Part shown: positions 5,526-22,779 of the stretch, one piece after another | How the letters are laid out: the number at the start of each line of letters is the position of its first letter | How positions within the stretch are numbered: position 1 is the stretch's first letter | NCBI RefSeq assembly: GCF_002563675.1 | Contig: NZ_PDJC01000001.1 | Location: 1 to 64,000 of the forward strand | Direction of reading: 5' to 3' | Length of the DNA stretch: 64,000 bases | Source of the DNA: Propionicimonas paludicola | GTDB lineage: Bacteria; Actinomycetota; Actinomycetes; Propionibacteriales; Propionibacteriaceae | Notes under the pieces: generated by a model | Databases searched by the model: none | The model's input: only the letters and a program-made list of their open reading frames with translations | Told to the model about the DNA's origin: nothing | Program-made: the position numbers and the translations under genes

Positions 5526-5795
5526 AGACCTCCTGGAGACGGGGCCTTTCCCCGGGCATCAATCGGCTCACGGCTGCGCGCTGAGGCCGGATGTCTTTGG
5601 CTCTTTGGGTGGACACGCGGGCGCCAAGGTGAATCACAGCCGTTCGATGAGAAGCGTCGTTTGGCCCCTGTGGCGGGCTCGTGTCAACCTCGCGAGCTCG
5701 GCCGTCGGTTGGCGTGGACGGCCTCCGGTCGGGTGGCGAGGCTGTCGTCCCCAGTCTGACAAGTTCGCACCGCCGTCTTGCGTCATAATGACTAC

Positions 5796-7057: not shown

Positions 7058-7133
7058 GCGTCTCCTTCGATCATGATGAGACCCATAATGTCGAAATGCG
7101 GGATCCGCGTCAGGTAGTTCGGAGAGGAACCTC

Positions 7134-7159
7134 GGGCGCCGCACCGCGCGGCGGCGCCC
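7134..7159. repeat. GC-rich inverted repeat between divergent genes
   Basis: Arms GGGCGCCGC and GCGGCGCCC (nine bases) are separated by eight bases. The repeat lies in the 121-bp gap between two divergent starts, so an operator or a 5' mRNA hairpin is more likely than a terminator. No T-run follows. Confidence 0.5.
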
Positions 7160-7178
7160 GTTCCGTCAATATTGGGAC

Positions 7179-8003
7179 ATGGCCGACGATGCCCGAACGG
7201 GTCCGGCGAACCCGAACCGGGTGGACGCGCTCTTCAGCTATGTGGTGGCGACTGACTCTGGATTTGCGCCGAATCCGTTCTTCGGGGTTTGCACGTTGGC
7301 GTGCTGCAAGCCAGCGATCCGCAGGGCGATTGGCGGACGGCTGCTGCGTCAGTCGGGACGAGCCGACATCACTGAGCTGCGGAGGTCAGATCCGGGCTAC
7401 ATCCGAGCGCAGAACATCTGGGTGGTCGGGCTGGCCGGTGTTGGGCTGCGGGGTCGTCCGCATCGGTCGGTGGTGTTCGTGATGCAGGTCACCGACGTCC
7501 TCGATTTCGAGTCGTACCACCGGGAGTATCCGCAGAAGCGTCCGATGCGGACGCCGCCGGCCACGTCCGTTGATCCGGCCTGGCATGGGGATGCGATCTA
7601 CACCGGCAACGATCCGGCCACCGCGCGCCAGCTGGCCCCGTCCGCGCACTCCAACGGTGAGGCCGAGGACGAGGGCAACAAGTGGCACGACCTCGGCGGA
7701 CGCTACGTCCTGGTGTCGGATCACTTCGTCTACTTCGGGCCGGACGCGCCCTACTTGCCGATCGAGGGGAAGTTGCACCGCGGCAGGGGGCATCGCTCGA
7801 ATCACGGCGCCGAGGCCATCGCCGAGCTAGAGGCGCTGCTCAACGGGGAGTGGGCTGAACTGCTCGACGATCCAGAGAGGCGGGTGAGCTTCGTCGCGGG
7901 CGACCAGCCGAGCTGCGACTGCGGATGCGCAACGATCCACGCCGACTCCGACAGACATCGCTCAACTGGCGTCGGGACCCGCGCTCTTGCGACGAGACTG
8001 TGA
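7179..8003 (+). CDS. Nmad2-like protein (nucleotide modification associated domain 2)
   Basis: The 274-residue product begins with VDALFSYVVATDSGFAPNPF, followed by GVCTLACCKPAIRR. This matches the opening of Nmad2 domains (a Tyr-Val-Val, FAPNPF, then Cys-Cys-Lys-Pro). NIWVVGLAGVG and VVFVMQVTDVLDFESYHREY further follow the family, as does GDAIYTGND. The linker normally holding a GDW-type motif is altered here. The C-terminus after residue 240 has a CDCGC run and a frayed end. Nmad domains were defined by genome context with DNA-base modification enzymes. No modifying enzyme is present in this window, so the role stays open. Confidence 0.65.
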   Translation: MADDARTGPANPNRVDALFSYVVATDSGFAPNPFFGVCTLACCKPAIRRAIGGRLLRQSGRADITELRRSDPGYIRAQNIWVVGLAGVGLRGRPHRSVVFVMQVTDVLDFESYHREYPQKRPMRTPPATSVDPAWHGDAIYTGNDPATARQLAPSAHSNGEAEDEGNKWHDLGGRYVLVSDHFVYFGPDAPYLPIEGKLHRGRGHRSNHGAEAIAELEALLNGEWAELLDDPERRVSFVAGDQPSCDCGCATIHADSDRHRSTGVGTRALATRL

Positions 8004-8210
8004 GCTGATCGCGTTGGCCGCCTTTGCAGCAACGCCACGCGCTCAGTAGCAGGGGCGGCTAGTGGAATGGGACTGTGTCGCAAGAGTGGCCAACACGTTG
8101 CCTGAATCGCCGGGCGACACGAGTAGCTTCGTGGCTCCGCAACATCGGTCCCCGCTCAATGTTGCCGCTACCCTGGTGATCCCAGTCAATTCACGTTCTA
8201 GGGCTGCAAG

Positions 8211-9803
8211 GTGAACGAGCACTTTTTCCGCAGACAATCTACATATGCTCGAATTCGTGATCTCAGTACTCCTGACCACTGGGTTGTCTACGTGGGACTA
8301 GGCGCCACGATCGACCGAACGGATGTCAGCTGGAGCAACTTGGTTCAGCAGTTGCTCGGGAAGTTCTGGAAGGAGACGGATGCCAATCTGGAGGATGTCT
8401 CTGATTGGGTGACGAACCTCGGACCCGAGCGTGCGGCAACTGCGGCTGAAGCCCTGTATCAGTGGCGAGACAAGGGCAATTGGGTTGGTCATCTGCAAGC
8501 TGATCTTGGTTCGATTCTCTATGGGCCGCGCCGCATGATGGCCGGAATGCTGCTCCAGGCGCTGAGCATGTGGGCCGCGATGATTGCGTGGCAAGGAGGA
8601 TCAGTCCTTTTTGTCACTCCCAATTACGACAGCTATCTCTATGAGGAGTTGCATCTTCAGTCGGAAGGGCTGGCTCCGCGGGTGGTGTTGAACCCTGTGG
8701 TGGTCTTAGGCGAGGGCGAGGGCCTTCCCGGCAACGTCACTAGCCCGGGCTCACTGACGTGTGTGCACCTGCATGGATCGGTGCCCTACGGCGACCGCCC
8801 TGTCGGAATTCCAGTCGTAGGTGAGGTTACCTACAGCATGACGAGTGCCCGCACGTCCGCGTTCCTAACTGAGTGCATTGAGTCTGCGCGACTGCTGATA
8901 GTGGGCTCGTCAGTAAGCGACGGGCCACTAGTTTCGAGTTTGATAGCTACTTCAAGCTCTGAGGGCCTGCAACCGCGCTATGCGATCCTGCCGCATCAAG
9001 GCTCGGAGTGGCTTGCGTCATCAGGTGTTCGCCACGGCATAAAGGCGCTTAGCTCTGACCGGCTCGCTGCGCTGGCGCTCACCGCCATCAATCCGGACTT
9101 CTACTCACAAGTAGCGCAACTGCTTCTCGAAAGCACCTGGGCACTCATGCGCGGCGACGTGGATCGTCTTGAAACCGTAAGGTACCGACGGAGGTACGAC
9201 GAACGGTTGGCGCGTTGGTGGAGGGGTTGGTCCGGGCACTGTGATGACTCGGCAGCCCAGGCGTTCCACCACGACATTCTTGACAGGTATCTGAAGATGG
9301 TGCGCTTCCAGCTTGGCGCCAGCCCGGACGAAGGGTTGAAGATTGAGATATGGGCGCGATGGAGCCCGAACCATCTGCGCGAACTGGCACTTTGGGCGGC
9401 CTCCATTGGGACTTGGCGCGACCACGAGCTTATGCGTCGCGACACTATCTCGCTTGAGAGTCCATATTTCGCGGTTCGGGTGTTCTGCGCAGGCTCGCCG
9501 CAGTTGGACGCCGCCGGTGCAGACGCGCCAGGGAGATGGAAGACGTCGTTTGGAATGCCCCTTTGGCATGATGGCAAGGGTGATGGGCCAGTTCCCGTGG
9601 GTGTTGTCGTCGTCTCCAGCACATGGGGAGTGAAAGCGGGTCCCGGCCATGGCGAGAGCTCGCTAAGGGAAAGGAACCTTGATCGCATTCAGCGAGCGAT
9701 GCCGTGGCTGGAGGAGGCAGGTGAACTGATCCTTGACAAGGAGATTCCAGCCAAGAGTCGGGGCGAAGTGCTGCGTGAGATTGACCGCGCGCTGGGTGCC
9801 TAA
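8211..9803 (+). CDS. SIR2-like domain protein with a possible GAF-like C-terminal region
   Basis: In this 530-residue protein, residues 25-45 (VVYVGLGATIDRTDVSW) match the NAD-binding loop of SIR2-like proteins. NYD at 138-140 and HLHGS at 186-190 match the Asn and catalytic His motifs. LLIVGSSVSDGPLVSSL at 228-244 matches the second nucleotide loop. Stand-alone SIR2-like proteins of this kind are mostly NADases of antiphage systems. The C-terminal 200 residues contain KTSFGMPLWHD and PVGVVVVSSTW, which resemble the core of a GAF sensor fold. This part is speculative. The start is GTG 8211 with AGGG six bases upstream. The gene stands alone, with about 200 bp free upstream. Confidence 0.7.
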   Translation: MNEHFFRRQSTYARIRDLSTPDHWVVYVGLGATIDRTDVSWSNLVQQLLGKFWKETDANLEDVSDWVTNLGPERAATAAEALYQWRDKGNWVGHLQADLGSILYGPRRMMAGMLLQALSMWAAMIAWQGGSVLFVTPNYDSYLYEELHLQSEGLAPRVVLNPVVVLGEGEGLPGNVTSPGSLTCVHLHGSVPYGDRPVGIPVVGEVTYSMTSARTSAFLTECIESARLLIVGSSVSDGPLVSSLIATSSSEGLQPRYAILPHQGSEWLASSGVRHGIKALSSDRLAALALTAINPDFYSQVAQLLLESTWALMRGDVDRLETVRYRRRYDERLARWWRGWSGHCDDSAAQAFHHDILDRYLKMVRFQLGASPDEGLKIEIWARWSPNHLRELALWAASIGTWRDHELMRRDTISLESPYFAVRVFCAGSPQLDAAGADAPGRWKTSFGMPLWHDGKGDGPVPVGVVVVSSTWGVKAGPGHGESSLRERNLDRIQRAMPWLEEAGELILDKEIPAKSRGEVLREIDRALGA

Positions 9804-9809
9804 CGGAGG

Positions 9810-9998
9810 CTAGAGCGGTTTGGCCTCTGGATTCACCATGGCGATATCGGAGACAAGCCAACGGTTTCGCCGAAGGTTGCGGCGGTATACAGCCTCAAGC
9901 TTCGCGCGAGTCGCGGGGTCGCCCACCCCCTTGGTGAGCTCACGCAGAGTGAACACCTCGGTTGGCTTGAGGTCCTTCACAGGCTCATCGAGGGTCAT
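9810..9998 (-). CDS. Small hypothetical protein (62 aa)
   Basis: The short frame starts MTLDEPVKDLKPTEVFTLREL and continues with a charged helix (TRAKLEAVYRRNLRRNR). Codon use is GC-rich in the third position, as for real genes here, and the end lies six bases from the convergent SIR2-like gene. An upstream in-frame ATG at 10022 would add eight basic residues. The function is not known. It could be a small partner of the SIR2-like protein, but position is the only hint. Confidence 0.45.
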   Translation of the reverse strand: MTLDEPVKDLKPTEVFTLRELTKGVGDPATRAKLEAVYRRNLRRNRWLVSDIAMVNPEAKPL

Positions 9999-10579
9999 GC
10001 GTCGTTCCCTTCCCCGGGGCACACCGACATGAAACCGCGCGGGTGGTGGTACGCGACCCCGGTGCCAGTAGCCGTTCGGTCATGCGACCACACCGGACAT
10101 CTGGGTTGAGTGGCCGTTCCTGCCGAACTTGGCGCGGGTTCCGCGACGCGAATGTGTCGCGGGGAGAAGGCGAGTGTGTCGCTGCTCAACTCAACTCGGA
10201 CTAATTGCGGTTCCTGATACGCACCAACAGTCACCATGTGAGCATCCTGCAATACCTGACGCGGTTCGCCACGTAGGCGAACCGCGTGTTGCAGTTCGAG
10301 AAATTGCACCAAGTGCTCCAGTGTGACGTCGTGCGTCGGCTCGCGTCTTGCTTCAACTACAGAAGCTGCGGTTATCGTCCACCGCAGAGGCTGGGCTTGG
10401 CAAGTACCCTTTCGTTGGCCGGTCGGCTAGGGGGTCGCCGCGGATCGTGCGCTAGTTGGTGCCTGAGTGCTGCCCCACATCCGACCGCAAGGCGGGGTCC
10501 GTCGCTGTGACCTGGGCATACTCCCGCCGCGTCTGCGGCGACCTGTTTGCGCCGTGGTGAGCCGGAGGCCTTGTAGTCC
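9999..10579. other. Intergenic region without a recognisable gene
   Basis: No frame here shows a family motif or a good ribosome-binding site. The only clear structure is the inverted repeat at 10259-10287. The right end runs into a malic-enzyme remnant. Confidence 0.4.
10259..10287. repeat. Perfect 12-bp inverted repeat
   Basis: Arms ACGCGGTTCGCC and GGCGAACCGCGT surround a five-base loop ACGTA. No T-run follows on either strand. It may be a processed hairpin, a regulator site or a remnant repeat. Confidence 0.6.
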
Positions 10580-10607
10580 AGGGCCGTCGGGTCAGGGTTG
10601 GGGCTTA

Positions 10608-10725
10608 GGCGGTCTGAGCGACGGTGGCGGCGACGACGTGAAGGTCGCGCATCGCGGCAGAGTGAGGCACCGGACGGAAATCGTTGATCAACCGGGCGAG
10701 GGCGGTCGCGGCGGCTCGGATCGGC
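10608..10725 (-). pseudogene. Remnant resembling the C-terminus of malic enzyme
   Basis: Read on the minus strand, this gives AAATALARLINDFRP and MRDLHVVAATVAQTA before a stop. These line up with AAADALAGLMNEYRP and MSDLRVVAATIAKAV in the intact malic enzyme at 27-28.8 kb. The rest of the gene is absent. It begins a few bases beyond the stop of the MarR gene, the same order as in the remnant pair at 24.4-25.0 kb. Confidence 0.5.
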
Positions 10726-10734
10726 CGCTGAGCC

Positions 10735-11184
10735 TCAGGAGTCGGCGATGGTGCTCAGCAGCGCGCAGGCGTGGGCGATGGCGTGCTGGTCCTCGGCGTT
10801 GAGGGCGCGGAGTTGGGCGTCCAGCCAGGCGTGGCGCTGGGTGCGGGTGGTCGCGGCGATGTCGTCGCCTTCGGGGGTGGTGCGGAAGAGCACCTTGCGG
10901 CGGTCTTTCGGGTCGGGGGTGCGGATCGCGTAGCCGGCGGAGGTGAGTCGGTTCACGCTCTGGCTCATGGACGCCGGCGCGACCTGGCCGTACTCGCTGA
11001 GCTCGGTCAGGGTCTGCGGGCCGTGCTTGTGTAGCCAGATGAGCACGTCCAGGGCGGTGTCGCCGAGGCTGCCTTCGGGACGTTCGCTGCGGAAGCGGCG
11101 ATAGAGCCGTCCCACCGTGGACCTGACCTGGCCTCCGAGACCTCCGTCGAGGGCGTCGTCCACTCCGTTTGCTTCCGTCTCCAT
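10735..11184 (-). CDS. MarR-family transcriptional regulator
   Basis: The 149-residue product has the family plan: dimerising helices at both ends, a winged helix at about residues 45-110 (GPQTLTELSEYGQVAPASMS), and the wing motif DPKDRRKVLFRTTPEG. It is divergent from an MFS exporter, and two palindromic TTAG-N5-CTAA sites lie between them, the first only six bases from its ATG. The likely role is repressor of itself and of the exporter, released by a small toxic ligand. The ligand cannot be told from sequence. Confidence 0.9.
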   Translation of the reverse strand: METEANGVDDALDGGLGGQVRSTVGRLYRRFRSERPEGSLGDTALDVLIWLHKHGPQTLTELSEYGQVAPASMSQSVNRLTSAGYAIRTPDPKDRRKVLFRTTPEGDDIAATTRTQRHAWLDAQLRALNAEDQHAIAHACALLSTIADS

Positions 11185-11190
11185 AGATCG

Positions 11191-11227
11191 TTAGCATACC
11201 TAAAAGACGATCTTTAGTACACCTAAA
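11191..11227. promoter_or_regulatory. Two TTAG-N5-CTAA operators in the marR/MFS divergent region
   Basis: TTAGCATACCTAA lies at 11191-11203, and TTTAGTACACCTAAA at 11213-11227. The centres are 23 bp apart, about two helical turns. Matching half-sites in both copies and the position between a MarR gene and its divergent target support MarR operators. Confidence 0.7.
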
Positions 11228-11270
11228 CATCGTGACTCGCCAACCACCGATGCCTTCCTCGGAGCTACCC

Positions 11271-12686
11271 ATGTCATCACCCACCGCCGCTGCAGGGTCA
11301 GCCGTGATGGAGAAGCCGTTCTCGTGGCGGTTCACCACCCCGCTGTTCATTGGCTCGGCGCTGAACCCGATCAACAGCTCGATGATCGCCACGGCGCTCG
11401 TCCCGATCGCCACCGGACTGGGCGTCCCCATCGGGCAGACCGCTTCCCTGGTGACCGCCCTCTACCTGGCCAGCGCGATCGCCCAGCCCACCGCGGGCAA
11501 GTTGGCCGCGGTGTTCGGCGCCCGACGGGTCTTCGTCGTCGGGATCGTCCTCGTGCTGCTCGGCGGCGTGCTGGGGGGAGTGGCGCCGAGCCTGGCGATG
11601 GTGCTGTCCGCCCGGGTGTTGATCGGGCTGGGGACGTCGTGTGCCTACCCGTCCGCCATGATGCTGATCCAGCGTCGGGCCGCGCAGACCGGCATGGAGA
11701 AGCCGCCCGGCGGCGTGCTCGGTGGTCTGCAGATCGCAGGGATGGCCACCGCAGCGCTCGGCCTGCCGATCGGCGGGGTGATCGTGCAGACCATCGGCTG
11801 GCGTTGGGTGTTCTTCATCAACGTCCCCGCGGCGCTGATCGCCCTAGCCGCAACGCTGATCTGGATCCCGCGCGACCCCGTCCCGCAGGAGCGCAGGAAC
11901 GTCCGCGGCGTGCTGTCCAGCATCGACCTAGCCGGGATCATCGGCTTCGGGCTGGCCACGATCGCGCTGCTGCTATTCCTGTTCTCCCTGCAGAACCCCA
12001 ACTGGACGATGCTGGCCGCCGCCGTGGTCCTGTTCGTCGCACTGACCCTGTCGGAACTGCGCGCCGCGTCCCCGTTCCTCGACGTGCGACTGCTCGTCCG
12101 CAACGGTGCCCTGACCCGCACCTACATCCGCTTCGCCCTGGTCGGGCTGTGCGTCTACGTGGTCATGTACGGCGTCACCCAATGGATGGAGGCCGCGCGC
12201 GGCATGTCCGCGCTGAGCGTCGGACTGCTCCTGCTGCCGATGGGGGTCATCTCCGGGGTGATCGTCGCGCCGATCTCGAAGCGCAACCTGGTCCGCGGGC
12301 CGGTGATTGTCGCGGCCGTCGCCAGCCTGATCGGCTCCATCGGCGTGGCCTTCCTCACCTCCGACACCAACATCGCGTGGATCATTGCGATCACGGTGGT
12401 CTTCGGTGTGGTGCTGGGGACGGCCTCCAGCGGCAACCAACTCGCCCTCTACCTCGAGGCGCCACCCGAGCAGCTCGGCGTCGCGTCCGGCCTCTTGCGG
12501 ACGTTCGGCTACATCGGCTCGATCGCGTCCTCGGCCATCGCCGGCATCGTCTTCCACACCGAAGCCACCGACAGCGGCGTCCGCACCATCGGCGCGATCA
12601 TGATCGTGGTCAGCCTCATCGCGGTCGCTTTCACGGTCTTCGACCGCTCCCTCCGCCGCCACGCCGGCACCACGTCCCACGCCTAG
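11271..12686 (+). CDS. MFS drug-exporter-type transporter (DHA2-like, about 14 TM)
   Basis: The hydrophobic 471-residue protein carries the MFS loop motif GKLAAVFGARRVFVVG and, in the N-terminal half, a motif-C-like GLPIGGVIVQTIGWRWVFFIN typical of antiporters. The length and segment count fit the 14-helix DHA2 group. I chose ATG 11271 because GGAG lies six bases upstream. In-frame GTG 11232 and ATG 11250 lack such a site, and the first would sit almost on the operator. The gene is probably repressed by the divergent MarR protein. The substrate is not known. Confidence 0.85.
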   Translation: MSSPTAAAGSAVMEKPFSWRFTTPLFIGSALNPINSSMIATALVPIATGLGVPIGQTASLVTALYLASAIAQPTAGKLAAVFGARRVFVVGIVLVLLGGVLGGVAPSLAMVLSARVLIGLGTSCAYPSAMMLIQRRAAQTGMEKPPGGVLGGLQIAGMATAALGLPIGGVIVQTIGWRWVFFINVPAALIALAATLIWIPRDPVPQERRNVRGVLSSIDLAGIIGFGLATIALLLFLFSLQNPNWTMLAAAVVLFVALTLSELRAASPFLDVRLLVRNGALTRTYIRFALVGLCVYVVMYGVTQWMEAARGMSALSVGLLLLPMGVISGVIVAPISKRNLVRGPVIVAAVASLIGSIGVAFLTSDTNIAWIIAITVVFGVVLGTASSGNQLALYLEAPPEQLGVASGLLRTFGYIGSIASSAIAGIVFHTEATDSGVRTIGAIMIVVSLIAVAFTVFDRSLRRHAGTTSHA

Positions 12687-12700
12687 AAGGAAGCCAGTTC

Positions 12701-13267
12701 ATGCCCGTCAACCCCCTAGGCGTCCTGCTCCGCAAGCGGCGTGCCGGACACCACACCCTCGCCTGGGCCACGCCCGAACTGCAGGCACCCGGAACCTTCG
12801 TGCTGACCAGCCCGGCCTTCGACCACGGCACTCCGATCCCGCCCCGACATCGCGGACGGATGCGCGGACCCAACATCTCACCGGCCCTGACCTGGACTCC
12901 GCCGCCGGCGGGCACTCAGGAGCTCGTCCTCATCGTTCAGGACCCCGATGTGCCTCTCGGCCGACCGGCCACGCATGCCCTCACTCTCGGCATCGACCCC
13001 ACTGCCCAGGGCATCCCGGAGAACGGGCTCACTCACCCCAGCCCCGTCCGTGGACTCCGCCACGGCAAGGGCGGTCTCGGTCGCCGCGGCTACTCAGGTC
13101 CGCTGCCGATTCGCTCCCACGGCCCGCACAGCTACGTGTTTCAGCTGTTCGCCCTCGACCAGCAGATCGATCTGCCCGACACGTTCACCCTGGACGACAC
13201 CGTCCAGGCCATGGCTGGACATGTGATCGCCCGCGCCCGTCTGGACGGGACCTACGAGATCCGCTGA
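12701..13267 (+). CDS. PEBP/YbhB-family protein
   Basis: The 188-residue product has the family order: FVLTSPAFDHGTPIPPRHRG, NISPALTWTPPPAGTQELVL, then a DPDVP motif, and later GYSGPLPIRSHGPHSYVFQL, which carries the GPxP and HxYxF signatures of the ligand pocket. The family binds phosphorylated or phospholipid-like ligands. The bacterial role is unclear. It follows the MFS gene by 14 bases with AAGGAAG upstream of ATG 12701, so it is probably in the same MarR-controlled operon. Confidence 0.88.
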   Translation: MPVNPLGVLLRKRRAGHHTLAWATPELQAPGTFVLTSPAFDHGTPIPPRHRGRMRGPNISPALTWTPPPAGTQELVLIVQDPDVPLGRPATHALTLGIDPTAQGIPENGLTHPSPVRGLRHGKGGLGRRGYSGPLPIRSHGPHSYVFQLFALDQQIDLPDTFTLDDTVQAMAGHVIARARLDGTYEIR

Positions 13268-13432
13268 CGGCACACAATCACGTTCGCCAGCGAGGAACCC
13301 TGCGATCACTCGAGTCGGGTGCGCGCACTCATCTCCGCTAGCTGCACTGTCGCCTCATCGCCTGCAGTCAGGCGTGGCTGTTGTATCCCTCAGTGCCCCT
13401 TGGTGTGCGGGAGGGCAGGCGGTGCTGACAAG

Positions 13433-13458
13433 GGTGAGAGTTGGCCCAAACTCTCACC
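13433..13458. repeat. 10-bp inverted repeat left of the invertible segment
   Basis: Arms GGTGAGAGTT and AACTCTCACC surround GGCCCA. It lies 45 bp outside the left 24-bp repeat. It could act as a hairpin that stops read-through into the ATP-grasp gene, although no T-run follows. It could also be a binding site. Confidence 0.55.
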
Positions 13459-13502
13459 GCCGATTACCCATGCGTGTCATAGTTGAGAGCAAGCGAATAC
13501 TA

Positions 13503-13526
13503 GATAATTGAGGATTATCTGTTGTC
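13503..13526 (+). repeat. Left 24-bp inverted repeat (probable recombination site)
   Basis: This is identical, in reverse orientation, to 17129-17152. Its core has short arms GATAAT and ATTATC around TGAGG, the layout of a tyrosine-recombinase crossover site, followed by TGTTGTC. GAGGA within it serves as ribosome-binding site and TTG at 13522 as the start of the ATP-grasp gene. Confidence 0.9.
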
Positions 13527-14670
13527 AGCGAACAATGAAGCCGCTGGTGATGGTCGGGCGGCGGTCAAGGCCCTTATCCGGCGGATGGAGCGTGAAGCAC
13601 CCGAGCTTGCACTCTTTCTCGTCTACGATCGGCCGAGCCGCGCGGGGGAGCGCCCCGGTCTTGAGCGAGCGTTCTTCACTCAGCGATGCGTATCCGATGA
13701 GCAGTTGAGGCAGACGGTGGAGGCGTTCCGCAGCATCGGGGCCTACGTAGAGTTGTTCGAGGGTGAGCGGGAGTTCATCGGTGCTGCGGCATCCGGCCGA
13801 CTCGGCTCACTCCAGCGGCGCATGAAGGTCGTCTACAACGGCATTGAAGGCTCGATCGCGCACGACGCGTTCATGCCAGGACGCAAGGCACTAGTGCCCG
13901 CCGTCGCAGATTCATACGGGTTCCTCTGCGCCAACTCGAACGCCTACGCCTGTGCGCTAGGTCGCCACAAGTTCCACTATCTGAGCCTGCTGAGCAGTCT
14001 GGGACTGCCCACGCCTCGCACCTGGCACTACCGCAAGGAAACCGGCTGGGCCGGCGGCCATTCACCCACAGAGGGCCTGAAGGTCATTGCGAAGTCGACC
14101 TACGAGTCGTGGTCGGTTGGCGTAACGGACGAGTCGATCTTCCTCGCTGACTCGACCAGCACGAACCGGGTCGCGGCAATCGCGGAGCGGATCGGTCAAT
14201 CCGTGACCGTGCAGGAGTTCGTCGCGGGGCAAGAAGTCTGCGTTCCCGTACTCGCGACACCCGAGTTGATGGGTACTCCCCCCGTTGTCGCAGTCCTTGC
14301 GAAGGCACCATTGGATCCAGAAGCAGTCATGACGATTGATGACAACCTGATGTCTGGCGGAGTCACGTACCAAGCGCTCACAGACCAAGACCTTGTCGGA
14401 CGGCTTCACTCTCTCGCACTCCGGGCCTTCATCGCACTAGAGCTGGATGCCTTCGCCCGGATCGACTTCCGTGTCGACGAGTCGGGGAACCCCTTCATCT
14501 TCGACGTCGGAGTGTCCCCGGGCCTGAGCAGGGGCAGCTCGGCTTTCGCGTCAATGTCGCACTGGGGTTTCACTCACGAGGAGTTCCTTCGGGCGATACT
14601 GGCCGCCAGTCTGCCAGCATCGGGCATACGGACTCCCTCAGGAGTCTCGCCAGAGCTCCACCTCCGGTAG
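13522..14670 (+). CDS. ATP-grasp protein related to D-alanine-D-alanine ligases
   Basis: The 382-residue product has the ATP-grasp layout. KSTYESWSVGV at 191-201 matches the ATP-binding loop of D-Ala-D-Ala ligases, QEFVAGQEV at 231-239 the adenine-binding strand, and ARIDFRVD at 312-319 plus FDVGVSPGLS at 327-336 the metal site. The usual Glu-x-Asn there reads Asp-x-Gly, so metal binding may differ. The family joins a carboxylate to an amine. The N-terminal 110 residues are not recognisable. The start is the TTG in the left repeat, eight bases after GAGG. I see no good promoter to its left, so the gene may be silent in this orientation. Confidence 0.8.
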   Translation: MSANNEAAGDGRAAVKALIRRMEREAPELALFLVYDRPSRAGERPGLERAFFTQRCVSDEQLRQTVEAFRSIGAYVELFEGEREFIGAAASGRLGSLQRRMKVVYNGIEGSIAHDAFMPGRKALVPAVADSYGFLCANSNAYACALGRHKFHYLSLLSSLGLPTPRTWHYRKETGWAGGHSPTEGLKVIAKSTYESWSVGVTDESIFLADSTSTNRVAAIAERIGQSVTVQEFVAGQEVCVPVLATPELMGTPPVVAVLAKAPLDPEAVMTIDDNLMSGGVTYQALTDQDLVGRLHSLALRAFIALELDAFARIDFRVDESGNPFIFDVGVSPGLSRGSSAFASMSHWGFTHEEFLRAILAASLPASGIRTPSGVSPELHLR

Positions 14671-17133
14671 CCGGAACCCTCTTCCGTAGTTGTCCCACAA
14701 CGGGCCGAACTCCACCGGATGGCGGTCGATCACATACCGATCAAACTCGCTCGGCGTGAGGCTCGCTTCCGTGAAGCTCTCGCGTAGAAACAGATGCCGA
14801 CGTTCAAGAAAGCTGACGGTGGTGTAGGCGATGGCGGAGAGCGTTGTCCCAAGGCCGTCCCACACCCGCAGTACATCGAAGTCTTCGCCGGCTAAAAACC
14901 GAACGGCGGTCTCGTTGCTGCCGAGAAGGTAGACCATGCTGGGCTCAGGACTTGTGCGGGTGGCATTGAGGTGACTGCGAAGAATCTTGAACTGACTAAG
15001 CGCACCATCGAGGTCACCGGAGAGTGCTAGGTACACGGCGAAGGCGTTATGAAGATAGAAGGGGTCTTCTCTATTGCCGTGCACGGCGATGATCTCTCGT
15101 TGACGCGAGGCAGCCTCACCCGGCGTGACTCGGCCGCCGCGGAGGCTGGCCAGCAGATGATTGCCGTGCGCGTAGTCCACCCTCGGGAAGGTCCCCGGTT
15201 CGAAGTCGTCGATCAAAGCAACGAGTCTCTCATGCGCCGTGATCGCATCGTCGTAGCGAGCGTTGCAGATTAGGTTCGCCCCATAGTTCAGGAGGCACCG
15301 GTAGTACTCAAGTGGTTTCCGAATGACAGACTCTTCGTCACGCGGCGCGAAGTACTCGGCGGCGCGTCTTGTACGGCGGAGAGCGATATCCGGCTGCTCG
15401 ACTGCACCGGCGCTTCTGTCGAGGATGTGGAGTTGGTCACCAGCGCTCTCGTCGAAGCCAACTCGACTCTCGAGACGGCTTCGGAGATCCCGTTCAAGCG
15501 CGCGAGCTTCGCCCTTATCTGTGGTCATTGCGAGGCCGTAAAGGAGGTGGCGCATAAGCCGAAAACCCAGGTCGAACTCCTCTGACTCGATACCCCGCCA
15601 GGAGTGCAACAGTTCCCGGCCAGACCGTCGGTTCACCTCACTCCGAGTGGCCATCAGGCACGCCGCAGCTATGCAGTCCGCCTCAGCATTGACCGAGCGT
15701 GCCAAACCTCGTGGAACGCGATCGACCAGATCAAGGCACTTCTCAAACTCGTAGGCGCCGAGAGCGATGGTTGCCTGCACCAGTGCACTGAGCGCGTCAG
15801 CTAGCCCGCCATCAGCAATGGCTTGTCGGACCTCTGGAGAGAGGTCCTCTAGGGTCCTGCTGTGATCTCGGGTGGCCTGGAGGCCCGCTTGAAGTCCTAG
15901 GACTGCAGCCTCCTTCGTCCGCTCAGCACGAAGTGCGTTGATGCAGCGGGTCTCATAGTCATCAGGCCGGAGGACCCGTAGGCAGTCCATTAGCCGCTCA
16001 TGCACTTCCACGCCGTCAGTCAGTTCGGGATCGCGGAAGTACTCGCGGATGATGTCGTGCACAAAACGGTATGTGCTCGCTCCTCCTTCGATGACGCGTT
16101 CATCGCAGCACCTCCGGATCAGGCGACGCGCCTCGGCATCCTCGCCGGGGTAGGCGCACACAACCTCGGCTTGTCGGAAGGTGAGCCCGATGGTTGCCGC
16201 GATCTGCAGTAGGGAGTGGAGCTCGTTACCAACATTGCCGAGTGCGCGCACGCGTTCGCCGAACAGCTCTCGCCGAAAGGCTGTGATGCTCATGGTTGTG
16301 AGTTGGCTGGGCCCGTAGCGGGATAGGTACTCCGCCGCCCGCTGAGCCAGCTGCAGGTGTCCGCCAGTCAGCGCGTAAATGTCCTCCACCGTCTCGCTCG
16401 GCGTGCCAGCCGGCGCACCAAAAGCGGTCAGGACTTCTCGGAACTGGGATGGAACTATCTCACCTAGCTCACGGCGGCGAACCCACCTGGCGGCAAGCGC
16501 GTCGTCATGGGCTCGCGGATAGACAACGCCTTGATACTTGGCGAGAGTCTCAACAGCAATCACGCGAAGCTGAGTCAGGAAGGGATACGACTCTCGCAAC
16601 TCTTCGTCTAGCAATGAGCTAAGGAACTTTAAGGAACCCGCGTCCCACCAATGCAGGTTATCGGCGATCAGGAGTAGCGGTCGCTTCCTAGACGCCCGCT
16701 CCAACACGGCTAGGGCATGCTGCTCGGCATCGCTGAAGACTCGGGAGTGTCCCCTCTTGCGGGATGGGCCGAGCCGCCTTGCGCCATCCACCACCTGAGC
16801 AAGCCCTTCGACGAGGCCCGCCATGTTCACGGCAGCCAGGGCCATCTGGCCTATGCCAGCCACGACTGGTACCGCACCCCTCCATCCCTGCGGCAGGCTC
16901 TCGAGTGCGTAGCCGAAGGGCGCGAGCGTTGAGGCGCTGCGATCGATGTCACCGACGGCAGTGAGAGTCACGCCTCCTGCGTCCTGCCAAGCAGAGCCAA
17001 CCACTCTTGCGATCGTTGACTTGCCTACGCCAGGAGGCCCGGTTAGAAGCTGGATTTCATCGGCGGTTTTGAGGCCTTCCGACAACTCCCGCACGACCGT
17101 GTCGTAGCCGAGCACCTGCATGACGCTGGACAA
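14638..17133 (-). CDS. STAND/AAA-type signalling ATPase with helical-repeat C-terminus
   Basis: The 831-residue product has Walker A GPPGVGKST at 32-40 and a Walker-B-like LLLIADNLHWWD at 153-164. A MalT/ORC-like arrangement of sensor and winged-helix segments extends to about residue 370, and a long helical, TPR-like region follows. It lacks a C-terminal LuxR helix-turn-helix. STAND proteins act as switches that assemble when they sense a ligand or partner. The start is the TTG in the right repeat, with GAGG at the same spacing as in the ATP-grasp gene. The recombinase stop lies 11 bases upstream, so recombinase and ATPase form an operon in this orientation. Confidence 0.75.
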   Translation of the reverse strand: MSSVMQVLGYDTVVRELSEGLKTADEIQLLTGPPGVGKSTIARVVGSAWQDAGGVTLTAVGDIDRSASTLAPFGYALESLPQGWRGAVPVVAGIGQMALAAVNMAGLVEGLAQVVDGARRLGPSRKRGHSRVFSDAEQHALAVLERASRKRPLLLIADNLHWWDAGSLKFLSSLLDEELRESYPFLTQLRVIAVETLAKYQGVVYPRAHDDALAARWVRRRELGEIVPSQFREVLTAFGAPAGTPSETVEDIYALTGGHLQLAQRAAEYLSRYGPSQLTTMSITAFRRELFGERVRALGNVGNELHSLLQIAATIGLTFRQAEVVCAYPGEDAEARRLIRRCCDERVIEGGASTYRFVHDIIREYFRDPELTDGVEVHERLMDCLRVLRPDDYETRCINALRAERTKEAAVLGLQAGLQATRDHSRTLEDLSPEVRQAIADGGLADALSALVQATIALGAYEFEKCLDLVDRVPRGLARSVNAEADCIAAACLMATRSEVNRRSGRELLHSWRGIESEEFDLGFRLMRHLLYGLAMTTDKGEARALERDLRSRLESRVGFDESAGDQLHILDRSAGAVEQPDIALRRTRRAAEYFAPRDEESVIRKPLEYYRCLLNYGANLICNARYDDAITAHERLVALIDDFEPGTFPRVDYAHGNHLLASLRGGRVTPGEAASRQREIIAVHGNREDPFYLHNAFAVYLALSGDLDGALSQFKILRSHLNATRTSPEPSMVYLLGSNETAVRFLAGEDFDVLRVWDGLGTTLSAIAYTTVSFLERRHLFLRESFTEASLTPSEFDRYVIDRHPVEFGPLWDNYGRGFRLPEVELWRDS

Positions 17134-17152
17134 CAGATAATCCTCAATTATC
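17129..17152 (-). repeat. Right 24-bp inverted repeat (probable recombination site)
   Basis: This is a perfect inverted copy of 13503-13526. Read on the minus strand it holds the recombinase stop TGA (17146-17144), the GAGG ribosome-binding site and the TTG start of the STAND ATPase (17133-17131). Confidence 0.9.
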
Positions 17153-18100
17153 GTGGAGGAACCTCTGGGTGAGGACGTCGGCGTTGGTGACTGCGCGGTG
17201 CAGAGCGGTGTCCGAGACGTGCGTGTAGATCTCGGTCGTGGTGATGCTTGCGTGGCCGAGCAGTCGCTGAACTACGCGGATGTCGACTCCCGCCTCGAGG
17301 AGTTGGGTCGCTGCAGCGTGGCGGAGCATGTGGGGCGTCACTGGCTGCTCGATGCCGGCTTGCTCGGCGGCGCGCTTGATGCGCCAGCGGATCGTCTCGG
17401 CCGTGATGGGGTTCCCGCTGCTGTTGAACAGCAGGTAGGGGTGAGTGACACCCGCCGAGTCGCGGTACCCGAGGTACTCATCGATCAGCCTCTTCAGCCA
17501 CGGGCCAACGATGTAGACCACTCTCTCGCGTTGTCCCTTGCCATGGACTCGCACCGCTCCCGCTGTGAGGTCAATGCTCTTGCACGTGATCGTCGCAGTC
17601 TCGCTCACGCGCGTGCCGGTGACGAGCATCAGGCTGACAGCCAGCAGCGTGGTTGCGGTGGCAGGTTGCTCCCGGATGTCGCCGTGGAGGCTGCCCGTTC
17701 GGCGGAGCTGCTTGCGGAGGTAGCTGTGGAGCGTCTCCAGATCACCGCTGCGAGCGACCTTGGGCAGTGTGTATCCGCCGCCTGGGCGAATATCGACCGA
17801 CGCCCACAGTCCGGGCTGCGCGAGTTGGCGGTCCACCATCCAGGAGTAGAAGCCGTGGAGTGCGCTCGAGCGCCTCATGATCGTGCGAGAGGTGAGCCCC
17901 GCTTGGCGTTGCCCCTGTAGGAACCTAAGGAAGTGGCCTGCCGTCAGTTCAGTTGTGTCTATGGCCGCGTCCATCTGGCGCAGCCACAGCGTCAGATCGG
18001 AGTCGTATGCGCGTGCCGTGTGCGGTGACGGGTCCTTCGTCATCCGGTACCAACCTAGGTACTGCTCGACCGCGGAGCTGGTCTGCATCGTCAAATCCAT
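17144..18100 (-). CDS. Tyrosine recombinase (XerC/XerD-like integrase)
   Basis: The 318-residue product has an N-terminal SAM-like DNA-binding domain and a complete catalytic set: Arg164 in TGTRVSE, Lys188 in VHGKGQR, His257 and Arg260 in HMLRHAAA, His283 in LLGHASI and Tyr292 in TEIYTH. The start ATG 18100 follows GAAGGA by a good distance. The last codons and the stop lie within the right 24-bp repeat, and the STAND ATPase starts just after. The enzyme probably recombines the two repeats. Because the repeats are identical, inversion does not change its own C-terminus. Confidence 0.92.
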   Translation of the reverse strand: MDLTMQTSSAVEQYLGWYRMTKDPSPHTARAYDSDLTLWLRQMDAAIDTTELTAGHFLRFLQGQRQAGLTSRTIMRRSSALHGFYSWMVDRQLAQPGLWASVDIRPGGGYTLPKVARSGDLETLHSYLRKQLRRTGSLHGDIREQPATATTLLAVSLMLVTGTRVSETATITCKSIDLTAGAVRVHGKGQRERVVYIVGPWLKRLIDEYLGYRDSAGVTHPYLLFNSSGNPITAETIRWRIKRAAEQAGIEQPVTPHMLRHAAATQLLEAGVDIRVVQRLLGHASITTTEIYTHVSDTALHRAVTNADVLTQRFLHDN

Positions 18101-18185
18101 CCTTCATGTGTTGAGATCGGTGACCGGGGACCCCTGCTCTCGCGGGCGCCAATCGGCAATCGCGCAGCGACAAGGTGAAACGGCC

Positions 18186-18323
18186 ATGGCTTCTCACGCG
18201 AGGATGTACCGGTTGGCGCACAGGTGGGCGCAACTGGCTGATGGTGAACACGTACAACGCCGGCCGCAGGACGCGATGCGAACCCAGTTCGGGGTCGCCT
18301 CAACCACTCGCGTCAGCGAGTAA
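18186..18323 (+). pseudogene. Possible short helix-turn-helix remnant
   Basis: The 45-codon frame ends RTQFGVASTTRVSE, which resembles the recognition helix of small actinomycete regulators, but no full domain is present. No family can be named. The frame may be chance. Confidence 0.25.
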
Positions 18324-18354
18324 CTGGAGCCTCAGGAGAAGGCAGTGCTGCGGC

Positions 18355-19107
18355 TCAGCCCTTCGAGCGGGATCCGGCGGTGAGCTTGGGTGCGAAGTTG
18401 GCGAACTCGTAGTCGAAGACGTCGGTGCGGATCTCGCCGACCAGGCCCCGATAGAGCTCGACGCCGACGTACTTGGTGGCCAGCTTGAGGCGTCCCTCCT
18501 TCTCCAGGCGCCGGACGCTGACCTGTACCTGCGGTTCGTCCAGCACGCGCAGTGGACGGAACTGGCTGGCCCGCCGGACCAGGTCGTGGTCTTCGGCCAG
18601 TCGCAGCGACTCGTCGAAGCCGCCGACCCGCTCGAAGAGCCGGCGCGAGATCACGATGCAGAACCCCGGCGCATGCGGGTCGACGTACTGTCCGACCTTG
18701 ATCACGGCCATGCAGGCGCTGTGCAGAAACTTGTCGAGCGAGCTGTCCGACAGCGGGACGATCTGGCAGGTGGCCAGGTCGAGGAACCGGCCCTCCAGCT
18801 GCTCATGCAGGTCGGCCAGGAACGTCCGGGAGATCCGGACGTCCGCGTCCAGGAACACCAGGAACGCGCCGGTGGCCGCGCGGGCGCCGTTGTTGCGTCC
18901 GATCCCGGGCATCCCGCCGGCAACCACCCGAGCCCCGGCGGACGTGGCCATCTCCACTGTCTGATCAGTCGAGCCGGCATCGGCCACGATGACTTCGAAG
19001 CTGCGGAACTCCTGGGCCTCGAGGTCGGCGAGCAGGCCGGGAAGCAGCTCCGCTTCGTTCAGGGTCGGAATCACGATGCTGAAGGCGATCGGGTCAGTCC
19101 GGGTCAT
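18355..19107 (-). CDS. Family 2 glycosyltransferase
   Basis: The 250-residue product opens FSIVIPTLNEAELLPGLL, then has VIVADAGSTD and FLVFLDADVRIS, the nucleotide-sugar and metal (DxD) motifs of GT-A fold enzymes. LRLAEDHDLVRRA is the C-terminal ED-type motif. It is soluble and lacks membrane helices. The start is the methionine of MTRTDP at 19107. Upstream in-frame sequence overlaps the patatin gene and looks non-coding. It is the third gene of a TetR-patatin-glycosyltransferase operon, so a link to membrane lipid or glycolipid metabolism is plausible. Donor and acceptor are unknown. Confidence 0.85.
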   Translation of the reverse strand: MTRTDPIAFSIVIPTLNEAELLPGLLADLEAQEFRSFEVIVADAGSTDQTVEMATSAGARVVAGGMPGIGRNNGARAATGAFLVFLDADVRISRTFLADLHEQLEGRFLDLATCQIVPLSDSSLDKFLHSACMAVIKVGQYVDPHAPGFCIVISRRLFERVGGFDESLRLAEDHDLVRRASQFRPLRVLDEPQVQVSVRRLEKEGRLKLATKYVGVELYRGLVGEIRTDVFDYEFANFAPKLTAGSRSKG

Positions 19108-19142
19108 GGCGATGCTCCTTTCCTCGTCGTTGCGACGGTGAG

Positions 19143-19925
19143 TCAAGCGGCGCTGCGGTCGGCCAGCCGGCCGGCGACCAAGTGGTCGCCGATCGTGTCG
19201 AACGAGTGGAAGTTGCGCAGGACGTCCTCTGCGGCTGCGCGTCCGGCTTCGATCAGCTGCGGGACGTCCGCAGGAGACCACTTCGACAGCCCCCTCAGGT
19301 CGGGTCGGATGGTGAGGGTGGACGCCTCGCGCTCCAGCTTCGCGATGGCCTCGGCGGTGCCGGGAGGTGCGGCCACCCACTCCGGGCTGAGCCGGACGGC
19401 GATGGTCCAGCGGGCGCCGAGCTGTCGGGCGGCTTCGATCGGGAGGTTCGCCCGCAGCCCGCCGTCGTACAGGACCTCGTTGTCGCGGATCACCGGCGGG
19501 AACAGTCCGGGAATGGCGACGCTCGCCCGCAATGCGTCGGCCAGTGATCCACTGGTGATCACGACGGTCTTGCCGCTCCGCACGTCCGTGGCCACCGCAC
19601 CGAACCGGATCGGCAGCTCCTCGATGCGTTGCACGGTCTCCAGCCGGCTCAGGGTCTCGCTCAGCGCTTGGGAGTCGAGGATCCCGAGCCGCGGGGTCAG
19701 GGTGAGTCGACCGACCGCCGCCCAGCTGCTGGACAGCATGAGTTCCTCGATCTCGTCCAGCGGCGTCCCGGACGCATAGGCGGCACCCACCAGGGCGCCG
19801 GCGCTCGTCCCGGCGACGACCTCGGGGTACAGGCCACGGGCGTTGAGGGCCTGCAGGACGCCGAGGTGCGCGGCACCCAGGACGGCGCCACCACCCAGGG
19901 CCAGGCCCAGCCCGGGGGTGGTCAT
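19143..19925 (-). CDS. Patatin-like phospholipase (RssA type)
   Basis: The 260-residue product has the oxyanion loop GLALGGGAVLGAAHLG at the N-terminus, the nucleophile elbow GTSAG at about residues 39-43, and the DGG motif of the catalytic Asp in LYDGGLRANLP. All catalytic elements of the Ser-Asp dyad are present. Its ATG overlaps the stop of the TetR gene by four bases (ATGA), so the two are translationally coupled. It probably hydrolyses acyl esters of phospholipids. The substrate is not known. Confidence 0.92.
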   Translation of the reverse strand: MTTPGLGLALGGGAVLGAAHLGVLQALNARGLYPEVVAGTSAGALVGAAYASGTPLDEIEELMLSSSWAAVGRLTLTPRLGILDSQALSETLSRLETVQRIEELPIRFGAVATDVRSGKTVVITSGSLADALRASVAIPGLFPPVIRDNEVLYDGGLRANLPIEAARQLGARWTIAVRLSPEWVAAPPGTAEAIAKLEREASTLTIRPDLRGLSKWSPADVPQLIEAGRAAAEDVLRNFHSFDTIGDHLVAGRLADRSAA

Positions 19926-20533
19926 CGTCTCGCCTCGACCGCGCGGCGTCCGGGCAACTCCTGTGCCCGGGTGGGGTTCAGGCCGTCCAGAAGCAGGCTC
20001 AGGTAGCGCCGGCGAGTGCCCTGGTCGGTATCCAGCAGTCCGGGGACGGCGGTGACCATGGCGAGCAGGGCCGGCACGTCATCGGGATCGAGGTCGGGAC
20101 GCAGGTTGCCGGCGGCCTGCGCCCGAGCGATGGTGTCGCGCAGTTCCTCGTCGCGGGCCAGGAACTCGCTGGTCACCGAGGCGATGTTGCCGATCGACTC
20201 GACGACGCCGCGCTCCCGCTCGAGCAGGTCGACCAGGCGTTCGGCGACCGACAGCAGATCGTCCCGGGACGCGTCCGAGGCGCAGAACTCGGTGAGCAGC
20301 GGACGAACCTCCTCGACGAACACCCGCTCCATGACCGCCTCGGCCAACTTCTCCCGGTTCGGGAAGTGCCGGTAGAGGGTGGCGATGCCGACCCCGGCCT
20401 CCTTGGCGATCAGGTTCAACGTGGTCGATCCCGGACGCCGCAGTGCCTCGCGGGCAGCCGCGAGGATCCGTCCGATGCTGGAGGCGGCGTCGGCGCGCAG
20501 CGCCTGCAAGGGTCCAGTGGTATCCGATAGCAC
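19922..20533 (-). CDS. TetR-family transcriptional regulator
   Basis: The N-terminal helix-turn-helix contains NLIAKEAGVGIATLYRHFPNR, the TetR signature, followed by an all-helical ligand domain. I chose GTG 20533. Longer versions starting at TTG 20569 would overlap the palindrome TGATAG-TGAG-CTATCA at 20544-20559, which is better read as the operator. The product is about 203 residues. It heads an operon with the patatin and glycosyltransferase genes and probably represses them and itself. Confidence 0.88.
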   Translation of the reverse strand: MLSDTTGPLQALRADAASSIGRILAAAREALRRPGSTTLNLIAKEAGVGIATLYRHFPNREKLAEAVMERVFVEEVRPLLTEFCASDASRDDLLSVAERLVDLLERERGVVESIGNIASVTSEFLARDEELRDTIARAQAAGNLRPDLDPDDVPALLAMVTAVPGLLDTDQGTRRRYLSLLLDGLNPTRAQELPGRRAVEARR

Positions 20534-20543
20534 ACTCTCATTT

Positions 20544-20559
20544 TGATAGTGAGCTATCA
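20544..20559. promoter_or_regulatory. Palindromic operator upstream of the TetR gene
   Basis: TGATAG and CTATCA are perfect inverted arms around TGAG, ten bases upstream of the chosen GTG start. Such a dyad beside a TetR gene is typical of autoregulation. Confidence 0.6.
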
Positions 20560-20677
20560 CTTCTGTCAACCAGGTCGGTGGCGCGGCCTCGAGTTCAGTG
20601 CGTTCCCGTGGGTGGCTGCGGTCGGTCAGGCCTGGTGCCTCCGATCAGCCCCGGCGACGCTCGGACGGCTGGGGCCG

Positions 20678-22108
20678 CTACTCGCCGTGGCCGGCGTTGG
20701 CTGCCGTGCGGGGAAGCAGGGGAATGATGGCGAGGACGGCCAGGCAGACGATTCCCACCACGATGAGGCAGACCTGCATGGCGTGGGCCATGTCGGTGCC
20801 GTAGGCCAACCAGATCGAGGTGATCACGGCTGAGCCGATCGCGCCGGCGAGTTGCTGGACGGCCGACAGGCTGCCACCGGCCGAGCCGGCCTCGTCGGGG
20901 GACGCGTCGCCCACGGCGATGTCGAACAGAGTGCCGAAGGTCAGCCCCATGCCGAGGCCGGTGACCACCATCGGCCCCACCAGATCCCAGGTTCCCAGTG
21001 CGAGCCCGTTGCTATAGACGGTGAGCCACAGCCATCCGGCGCCGAGGGCTGTGGTGAGGACGCCCGCGGCCACCAGGTTGCGACCGAGCTTGCCGATCAG
21101 GGGTGCCGCGATGAAGGAGGCGACGATGATGCCGACCGACATCGGCACGATGCCGGTGAGTGCGGTCTGGACCGGGTCGCGGTGCAGTGCCTGCTGGCAG
21201 AACAGCGACACGACATAGGCCATTCCAGTGACGACCGCGAAGTAGCCGAGCCCAGCCAGCAGGCCCGCGGTGAAGCCGCGGTTGCGCAGCAGCGAGGGGA
21301 GAATGAGCGGGTTGGCGGCCTTGGCCTGGCGGACGGCGAAAGCCGCGAAGGCGGCGATCCCGATCGCCAGCAAGGAGAGGGGCCATGGGCCCCAGCCGAG
21401 CTCCGGGCCCTCGATCAGGCCGGCAATCGTCCCGAGCACGGCCAGGCTGAGCAGGACGGAACCAGGCGCGTCCAGGACGACCTTGGGGTCGGCCGGGATG
21501 CGGGGCAGGATCTTCGCGGCAAGAGCGAGCCCCAGGCCGCCGAACACGATGTTGATCAGGAACATCGGACGCCAGGACAGTCCGAACCAGTTGGCGTTGA
21601 CGATGTAGGCGCCCAGGATGGGTCCGCCGATCGATGCCAGAGCCATCATCGGCCCGAAGGTGGCGAAGGCGACCGACTTGAAGTCGCGCGGGAACACGGC
21701 GGTCATGATCGCGAGCCCCTGGGGGATCAGCAGAGCACCGAAGCCTCCTTGAATGAGGCGGGCGATGACCAGAACTGTCGGCGACCAGGCCAGGCCGCAG
21801 GCCAGCGACGCCAGTGTGAATCCGGTGATGCCGATCAGGAACACCCGGCGTTGGCCGAAGCGGTCGCCCAGGCGTCCGCCGAGGACGAGCAGGCTGCCGA
21901 GCGCCAGCGCGTAGGCCGACCCGAGCCACTTCAGCAAGCCGGCCCCACCGCCGAGTTCGGCGACGATCGTCGGCGCGGCGATGTTGGTGAGGGTGGAGTC
22001 CATCAGGTCGAGCATGTCGGCGATCAGGACGACGGCGAGGATCGCCCACAGGCCGGCGCGCGAGGTGGCGCCGACTGGCTCCTTTATTGGTTCGAGCGTG
22101 GTGTCCAT
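20678..22108 (-). CDS. MFS transporter, DHA2 drug-efflux type (14 TM)
   Basis: The 476-residue product is very hydrophobic with about 14 helices. The N-terminal DLMDSTLTNIAAPTI (motif D1 region), GGRLGDRFGQRRVFLIG (motif A) and a motif-C-like GPILGAYIVNANWFGLSWR are typical of proton-driven efflux pumps. It is divergent from a TetR gene 100 bp away, which probably represses it. Drug or solvent export is the usual role. The substrate is unknown. Confidence 0.9.
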   Translation of the reverse strand: MDTTLEPIKEPVGATSRAGLWAILAVVLIADMLDLMDSTLTNIAAPTIVAELGGGAGLLKWLGSAYALALGSLLVLGGRLGDRFGQRRVFLIGITGFTLASLACGLAWSPTVLVIARLIQGGFGALLIPQGLAIMTAVFPRDFKSVAFATFGPMMALASIGGPILGAYIVNANWFGLSWRPMFLINIVFGGLGLALAAKILPRIPADPKVVLDAPGSVLLSLAVLGTIAGLIEGPELGWGPWPLSLLAIGIAAFAAFAVRQAKAANPLILPSLLRNRGFTAGLLAGLGYFAVVTGMAYVVSLFCQQALHRDPVQTALTGIVPMSVGIIVASFIAAPLIGKLGRNLVAAGVLTTALGAGWLWLTVYSNGLALGTWDLVGPMVVTGLGMGLTFGTLFDIAVGDASPDEAGSAGGSLSAVQQLAGAIGSAVITSIWLAYGTDMAHAMQVCLIVVGIVCLAVLAIIPLLPRTAANAGHGE

Positions 22109-22209
22109 GGGGTTCCTTCCGGTTAGCGGCCCGCCAAGGCTGGCATCGCTCTAATATTGGAACCGTTACAGATATGATGTCAACTCAGGAATCTTGGTAG
22201 GGTGATGCC

Positions 22210-22779
22210 GTGACCGACGAGGTGGGCCTGCGCACGCGCAAGAAGCTCCGTACCCGTGAGGCGATCAGCAACGCCGCATTGGGGTTGTTCATCGAGCGGG
22301 GCTACGAGAACGTCACTCTTTCCGAGATCGCCAGAGCGGCCGAGGTGTCGGTTGCCACCGTTTTCAGCTACTTCCCCGACGGCAAGGACGCACTCGTCTT
22401 CGAGCAGGACGAAGACCGGCCGGCCGCCATCGCCGAGGCGATTCAGACCCGTGGGGACGGCGCGAGTGTGATGGACGCGGTCGAGGCGTTCATCCTGAGT
22501 CGTGGCCCTTTCCGGAAGGGAAACGCCGCCACCCCGGTCCAGCGACTGATTGCCGAGACCGCGCCGCTGCGGGCCTACGCCCAGAAGCGGTGGGCAGCCT
22601 GCGAGCCCGTCCTGAGGTCGGCACTGGCTGAGGAGTCCCGCCGTCCCGAGGACGTGAATGTCCGAGCGCTCGCCCGATACGTTCTCGAGATCCCGGAGAT
22701 CGCGGCCCAGGATGCCGATCCGCGAGCGACCGTCGGCCAGCTCTTCACTCGCCTCCGCGCAGGATGGGGCATCGCTTAG
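22210..22779 (+). CDS. TetR-family regulator of the divergent MFS pump
   Basis: The 189-residue product opens with RTREAISNAALGLFIERGYE and then TLSEIARAAEVSVATVFSYF, a full TetR helix-turn-helix. The C-terminal part (about 120 residues) resembles the ligand domain found with actinomycete efflux pumps. The start is GTG 22210. The 101-bp divergent spacer is relatively AT-rich and holds only an imperfect dyad (GTTAC and GTCAAC around 22166-22185), so I cannot fix the operator. Confidence 0.9.
   Translation: MTDEVGLRTRKKLRTREAISNAALGLFIERGYENVTLSEIARAAEVSVATVFSYFPDGKDALVFEQDEDRPAAIAEAIQTRGDGASVMDAVEAFILSRGPFRKGNAATPVQRLIAETAPLRAYAQKRWAACEPVLRSALAEESRRPEDVNVRALARYVLEIPEIAAQDADPRATVGQLFTRLRAGWGIA

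Follow-up and report, generated by a model that had tools for sequence, protein, structure and literature searches.

Results

A perfect inverted repeat encloses two convergent genes beside a recombinase gene

Within the window, by which we mean the whole 64-kb stretch of DNA analysed, an ATP-grasp gene and a STAND-like ATPase gene lie tail to tail on a segment bounded by an inverted repeat, and a gene for an Xer-type tyrosine recombinase stands at the right-hand end, fixed outside the segment except for its stop codon (Table 1). The arms of the repeat are complementary at 24 of 24 positions with 3,602 nt between them, and no longer perfect inverted repeat occurs in the window; the longest obtained by chance, in 100 dinucleotide shuffles of the region, measured 16 bp. 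The preliminary description had reported this repeat, a small dyad of GATAAT and ATTATC around TGAGG in both of its copies, and two complete convergent genes between them, and all of this is borne out, the genes being complete and overlapping at their 3' ends. In the whole genome the dyad occurs only in this pair and in a second pair at contig 3253178/3256811. The same description had the recombinase retain all its catalytic residues and abut the right copy; the residues are indeed present, whereas "abut" understates the arrangement, as the stop codon, TGA at 17144-17146, is inside the repeat.

Read in the direction of the recombinase gene, the site, GATAATTGAGGATTATCTGTTGTC, contains in succession the recombinase stop (TGA), a Shine-Dalgarno sequence (GAGGA) and the start codon of the next gene (TTG), which at the right site is the TTG of the STAND-like gene at 17131-17133. 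Since the same TTG is present at both sites, the translation starts of the two switched genes are identical, and because the site combines the end of the recombinase gene with the ribosome-binding and start region of its neighbour, a flip would change the operon partner and leave the recombinase protein unaltered.

In the orientation of the window the ATPase gene is directly behind the recombinase, and the ATP-grasp gene is at the far side, downstream of co-directional MFS-YbhB genes. The cassette has a GC content of 61%, against 68-69% in its flanks. No U/T-tailed terminator was found in the module region, either between the genes or around them, which, together with the tail-to-tail overlap, implies that a transcript from the recombinase gene runs sense through one of the two genes and antisense through the other. 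Neither was a consensus promoter found between the MFS-YbhB genes and the far site. This interval does hold a perfect hairpin, 44 bp outside the left site, whose stability is equalled by none of 200 shuffled versions of the 41-nt piece; it was noticed at the window locus only and may act as a transcriptional insulator of the far-side gene.

Two perfect inverted repeats of 19 bp were seen elsewhere in the window. One (38812-38830 / 40014-40032, 1.2 kb apart) surrounds a gene for a sigma-70-like factor, with one arm also lying within a local hairpin, so that it may be terminator-like sequence; the arms of the other (30416-30434 / 38312-38330) are 7.9 kb apart.

Table 1 Features of the invertible locus, in window positions
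Feature	Position	Strand	Remarks
Perfect hairpin, 10 bp	13433..13458	+	-17.4 kcal/mol
Invertible segment	13503..17152		3,650 bp; opposite orientation at contig 3253178-3256827
Left (far) inversion site	13503..13526	+	Shine-Dalgarno GAGGA and TTG start of the ATP-grasp gene inside
Dif-like dyad core, left	13503..13519		GATAA-TTGAGGA-TTATC
ATP-grasp gene	13522..14670	+	D-Ala-D-Ala-ligase-like C-terminal domain, PF07478, E 8.6e-13
3' overlap of the convergent ATP-grasp and ATPase genes	14638..14670		33 bp
STAND-like ATPase gene	14638..17133	-	N-terminal AAA_16, PF13191, E 2.5e-12
Right (recombinase-side) inversion site	17129..17152	-	same sequence as left site, on the minus strand
Dif-like dyad core, right	17136..17152
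Xer-type tyrosine recombinase gene	17144..18100	-	PF00589, E 5.1e-41; PF02899

One assembly carries both orientations of the segment

The genome is assembled as a single contig of 3,262,476 bp, the end of which (3239665-3262476, 22.8 kb) repeats window positions 1-22801 from first base to last. This terminal repeat is the untrimmed end of a circular assembly, and genes within 1-22801 are consequently counted twice in whole-genome searches. The sole structural difference between the two copies is that 13503-17152 is reversed, with 3650 of 3650 bases identical. There are 26 mismatched columns, nearly all of them single-base indels together with one small misaligned patch at 3179-3184, and all of these fall within the first 4.5 kb or the last 0.4 kb of the overlap; from 4449 to 22419 there is no difference at all, the reversed segment aside.

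Since both orientations are found in one assembly, DNA of both must have gone into it, and both were thus present in the sequenced culture; a genuine duplication at the contig ends would equally contain both. Short of read counts, the assembly is direct sequence evidence for inversion between exactly these repeats, and the overlap displays what is expected of phase variation, namely the same clone with both orientations and breakpoints in inverted repeats. The assembly thereby supplies, in effect, the check that the preliminary description had asked for, a look for the two orientations, and its proposal that inversion exchanges the gene directly behind the recombinase is supported.

The arrangement recurs on plasmids of two other phyla

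A tblastn search of plasmids found the ATP-grasp, ATPase and recombinase genes side by side on pMRAD01 of Methylobacterium radiotolerans (JCM 2831), and on a plasmid of Paenibacillus sp. (IHBB 10380) an ATP-grasp match that adjoins the same two partners. The trio thus spans three phyla, on a high-GC, probably actinobacterial chromosome (that of the window), a Pseudomonadota plasmid and a Bacillota plasmid, with identities of the two homologues to the window proteins of 25 and 22% for the ATPase, 33 and 25% for the ATP-grasp protein and 36 and 26% for the recombinase. Both orientations occur among these distant relatives, the gene behind the recombinase being that of the ATP-grasp protein in Methylobacterium and that of the ATPase in Paenibacillus, as in the window.

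Perfect inverted repeats are found in the same places, ATAATCGGGGATTATGG (17 bp) in Methylobacterium and CCTAATAACTATGAATTATTTGGAGGTGTT (30 bp) in Paenibacillus. The former exceeds its longest shuffled counterpart, of 16 bp, by very little, and owes its significance to where it lies, precisely at the recombinase stop and both gene starts. The recombinase stop and the Shine-Dalgarno sequence are within the repeat at all three loci, and the start codons of both switched genes at two of the three, the start in Methylobacterium being ATG. The site sequences differ from locus to locus around a common core, ATAA-N7-TTAT. Judged by sequence, the genes, their order, and the position and function of the site are therefore conserved although the sequences themselves are very distant, and because the arrangement has been kept across three replicons at about 22-36% protein identity, it is probably itself under selection.

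The module is rare: no second copy or close homologue of it was found in the 30 genus, 147 family, 231 order, 395 class and 396 phylum genomes sampled. As for the flanking genes, GT2 had no genus relative above the threshold applied, and that of YbhB was remote. Several matches were set aside as ATP-grasp genes without the module, namely the genome-contig loci L027 and L028 and the viral or phage loci L038-L041 and L044.

As a control we scanned 118 loci with related recombinases (110 from genomes and viral contigs, 8 from plasmids). None of the scorable recombinases among them has a perfect repeat of at least 17 bp across its stop codon, a control that is weaker for the loci from the genome search, which are only about 3.5 kb long. 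The single longer repeat near a stop, of 19 bp (L159), lies downstream of the stop codon, beside an annotated IS5-family transposase gene. The arrangement is thus a property of the module and not of Xer-like plasmid recombinases, and the idea that it extends to other gene pairs was dropped, since the related plasmid and viral recombinases have no comparable repeat.

The recombinase resembles XerC and XerD but scores below both family cut-offs

With its Phage_integrase domain and its R, K, H, R, H and Y residues, the recombinase belongs to the tyrosine recombinase superfamily; R164, K188, H257, R260, H283 and Y292 are invariant across the three module enzymes, and the profile aligns to XerD (1a0p). 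It scores well below the NCBIfam cut-offs for XerC and XerD (195.8 and 187.1 bits against 335 and 330), and below those for FimB/FimE-type invertases (52.1 and 41.8 bits against 221 and 222 for NF007370 and NF007371). Gin of phage Mu is a serine invertase, and the enzyme here, as a tyrosine recombinase, is not of the Gin/Hin type. In a recombinase tree with long branches the three module enzymes do not form one clade: those of the window and Methylobacterium fall into a nine-row group with plasmid recombinases (100/100), and the Paenibacillus enzyme lies outside it.

A probable two-state switch and its alternatives

Taken together, these observations make it likely that the locus is a two-state switch, in which the adjacent Xer-type recombinase flips the 3,650-bp segment and so decides whether the ATPase or the ATP-grasp gene takes second place in its operon. 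The recombinase would join the two identical dif-like sites, which stand in inverse orientation, and reverse the DNA between them; from the anatomy of the site, whichever gene arrives behind the recombinase would be translationally coupled to it, and the other, at the far side, would be read antisense by the recombinase transcript and have no obvious promoter. In a mixed population the two proteins would then be made largely as alternatives. We infer that expression is limited to the gene behind the recombinase, which would make the two proteins alternative "effectors".

Both switched genes keep a Shine-Dalgarno sequence and a start codon at the far position, so that exclusivity would depend on transcription alone. 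One could imagine that both genes are ON in one of the orientations, or that the far-side gene has its own promoter, with inversion mainly altering recombinase or antisense transcription. In the window the co-directional MFS-YbhB genes do precede the far-side gene, and a promoter located beyond the far site may drive it. That interval, however, carries the strong hairpin and shows no consensus promoter, and the sharing of stop, Shine-Dalgarno sequence and start with the recombinase at all three loci is best explained if the position next to the recombinase matters. We therefore regard a switch that is not either/or as unlikely.

A second question is which enzyme operates the sites. Their cores are dif-like, and two further Xer-like matches exist in the host besides the module recombinase, so host XerC/XerD could act on them, alone or both together, with the adjacent recombinase a relic or employed elsewhere. 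Against this, the recombinase gene is intact, linked to the sites at all three loci and has its stop codon within one of them, and the centre of the site is 7 bp and not 6, although dif-like sites of phages may be longer as well (PMC3025954). Catalysis of the inversion by the adjacent enzyme seems the natural assumption, and a switch worked by the host proteins quite improbable.

The low GC content of the cassette, the plasmid location of two of the three loci and the Xer-like character of the recombinase might instead suggest that the repeats bound a mobile cassette, one that is exchanged in the manner of an integron or pdif module, with inversion as a side effect. We consider this very improbable, since there is one site pair only in the whole genome, the recombinase is outside the sites, and the same gene pair is kept in three phyla where a varying cargo would be expected. 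Finally, it is hardly credible that the inverted contig-end copy arose as an artefact of assembly from a segment that never flips: the evidence comes from one assembly with contig ends of lower quality (the small indels), but the inversion breaks precisely at the repeats, whose 24 bp are far from enough to confuse a long-read assembler, all 3,650 bp match between flanks free of differences, and distant homologues show both orientations with the repeat in the same position.

The two switched proteins

The ATP-grasp protein reaches 61.6 bits against D-Ala-D-Ala ligase (Ddl), far from the cut-off of 243, and the metal-ligand motif of Ddl, E-x-N before P-G, is replaced by D-x-G/A in all three module proteins. 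The missing E-x-N indicates that the protein is probably a ligase-like enzyme for another substrate, or one with altered activity, and the shared D-x-G/A (window 13522-14670; L034 5032-6111; L035 5796-6875) suggests an ATP-grasp subfamily not yet assigned. The ATPase has an AAA_16 domain with a Walker A motif, and its remaining ~650 residues match no family and contain no recognisable effector domain; the Paenibacillus homologue weakly matches nSTAND_NTPase5, and the predicted structure, with a mean pLDDT of 39.8, is unusable. The label "STAND" is reasonable but unproved. PADLOC models gave no match for the module proteins of the window and marginal P-loop matches in the homologues only, so that no module protein is tied to a known anti-phage defence system by a match beyond the P-loop.

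Comparison with known inversion systems

The preliminary description named invertible promoters and invertible specificity genes but no precedent for this pairing. A claim that no switch of this kind is known would be too strong. In the G segment of phage Mu and its Mu-like relatives, inversion decides which gene set is expressed, and there, as here, an invertible gene segment lies beside its own recombinase gene (PMC4406740); in Ureaplasma, inversion at short repeats alternates the expression of two neighbouring genes of opposite orientation, as in mba/UU376 and UU172/UU171, and Xer-type recombinases are suspected (PMC3047005). The differences lie in the genes and in the site. The Mu alternatives are pairs of tail-fibre genes that share one role, and their 34-bp repeats are not shown in PMC4406740 as stop, ribosome-binding site and start, whereas the site of the window contains all three. 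The Ureaplasma genes encode surface antigens, with one repeat within coding sequence, fusions as the product of inversion and a recombinase that was not identified (PMC3047005), whereas the module exchanges unrelated ATP-using enzymes, unfused.

Tyrosine recombinases also drive phase variation at short inverted repeats in FimB/FimE, RecV and other promoter invertons, but these flip small, mostly intergenic pieces of ~150-315 bp (PMC5903667), and the module flips two whole genes with the recombinase gene as its fixed part. In Streptococcus pneumoniae the tyrosine recombinase PsrA inverts coding DNA at hsdS and shuffles homologous specificity genes (PMC4948785, PMC7096588), in contrast to the two unrelated complete genes exchanged here. 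In protein family and site the module resembles XerC/XerD and dif, for example F. alni dif, GATAATGCACATTATG, the dif pattern being CATAA-N6-TTATG against ATAA-N7-TTAT in the module (PMC3025954); unlike that system, the module combines a recombinase below the family cut-offs with a local, inverted pair of sites with a 7-bp centre.

In the open-access literature we found neither this gene pair described nor a recombination site serving also as stop, ribosome-binding site and start, so that in these two respects, the pair and the site anatomy, the claim of novelty appears to hold. The bacterial inversion switches described so far mostly turn a promoter round or swap homologous genes for surface or specificity proteins, and here the alternatives are two unrelated enzymes in a compact two-state switch, for which a recombinase stop codon inside an inverted repeat offers a signature for finding more. 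One could speculate, and we do so tentatively, that this is an undescribed cross-phylum module in which a single sequence serves as recombination site, stop and ribosome-binding/start region, and by which the cell might choose between two unrelated, jointly conserved proteins in a heritable bistable decision, perhaps immune-on/immune-off; co-expressed with the recombinase, either protein could then also set the rate of exit from its own state.

Genomic neighbourhood

Just left of the module the window holds a defence-like stretch of low GC content (0.60-0.63). It comprises a DUF488 gene and an opposite-strand partner (5778-7144), which match the PADLOC candidate pair PDC-M19A/PDC-M19B, as well as Nmad2 (7179-8003) and a weak SIR2-like match (8211-9803). 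On the Methylobacterium plasmid a Pycsar TIR effector gene (PycTIR, L034 10940-11851) is found at a distance of 2.4 kb from the module, with an IS5-type element in between. Defence-like genes are thus near two of the three module loci, a neighbourhood that hints, if weakly, at conflict biology; on such slight indications the likeliest use of the switch might be bet-hedging in conflict with phages or other elements. The locus could also help to test whether recombinases found near defence genes serve regulation and not mobilisation.
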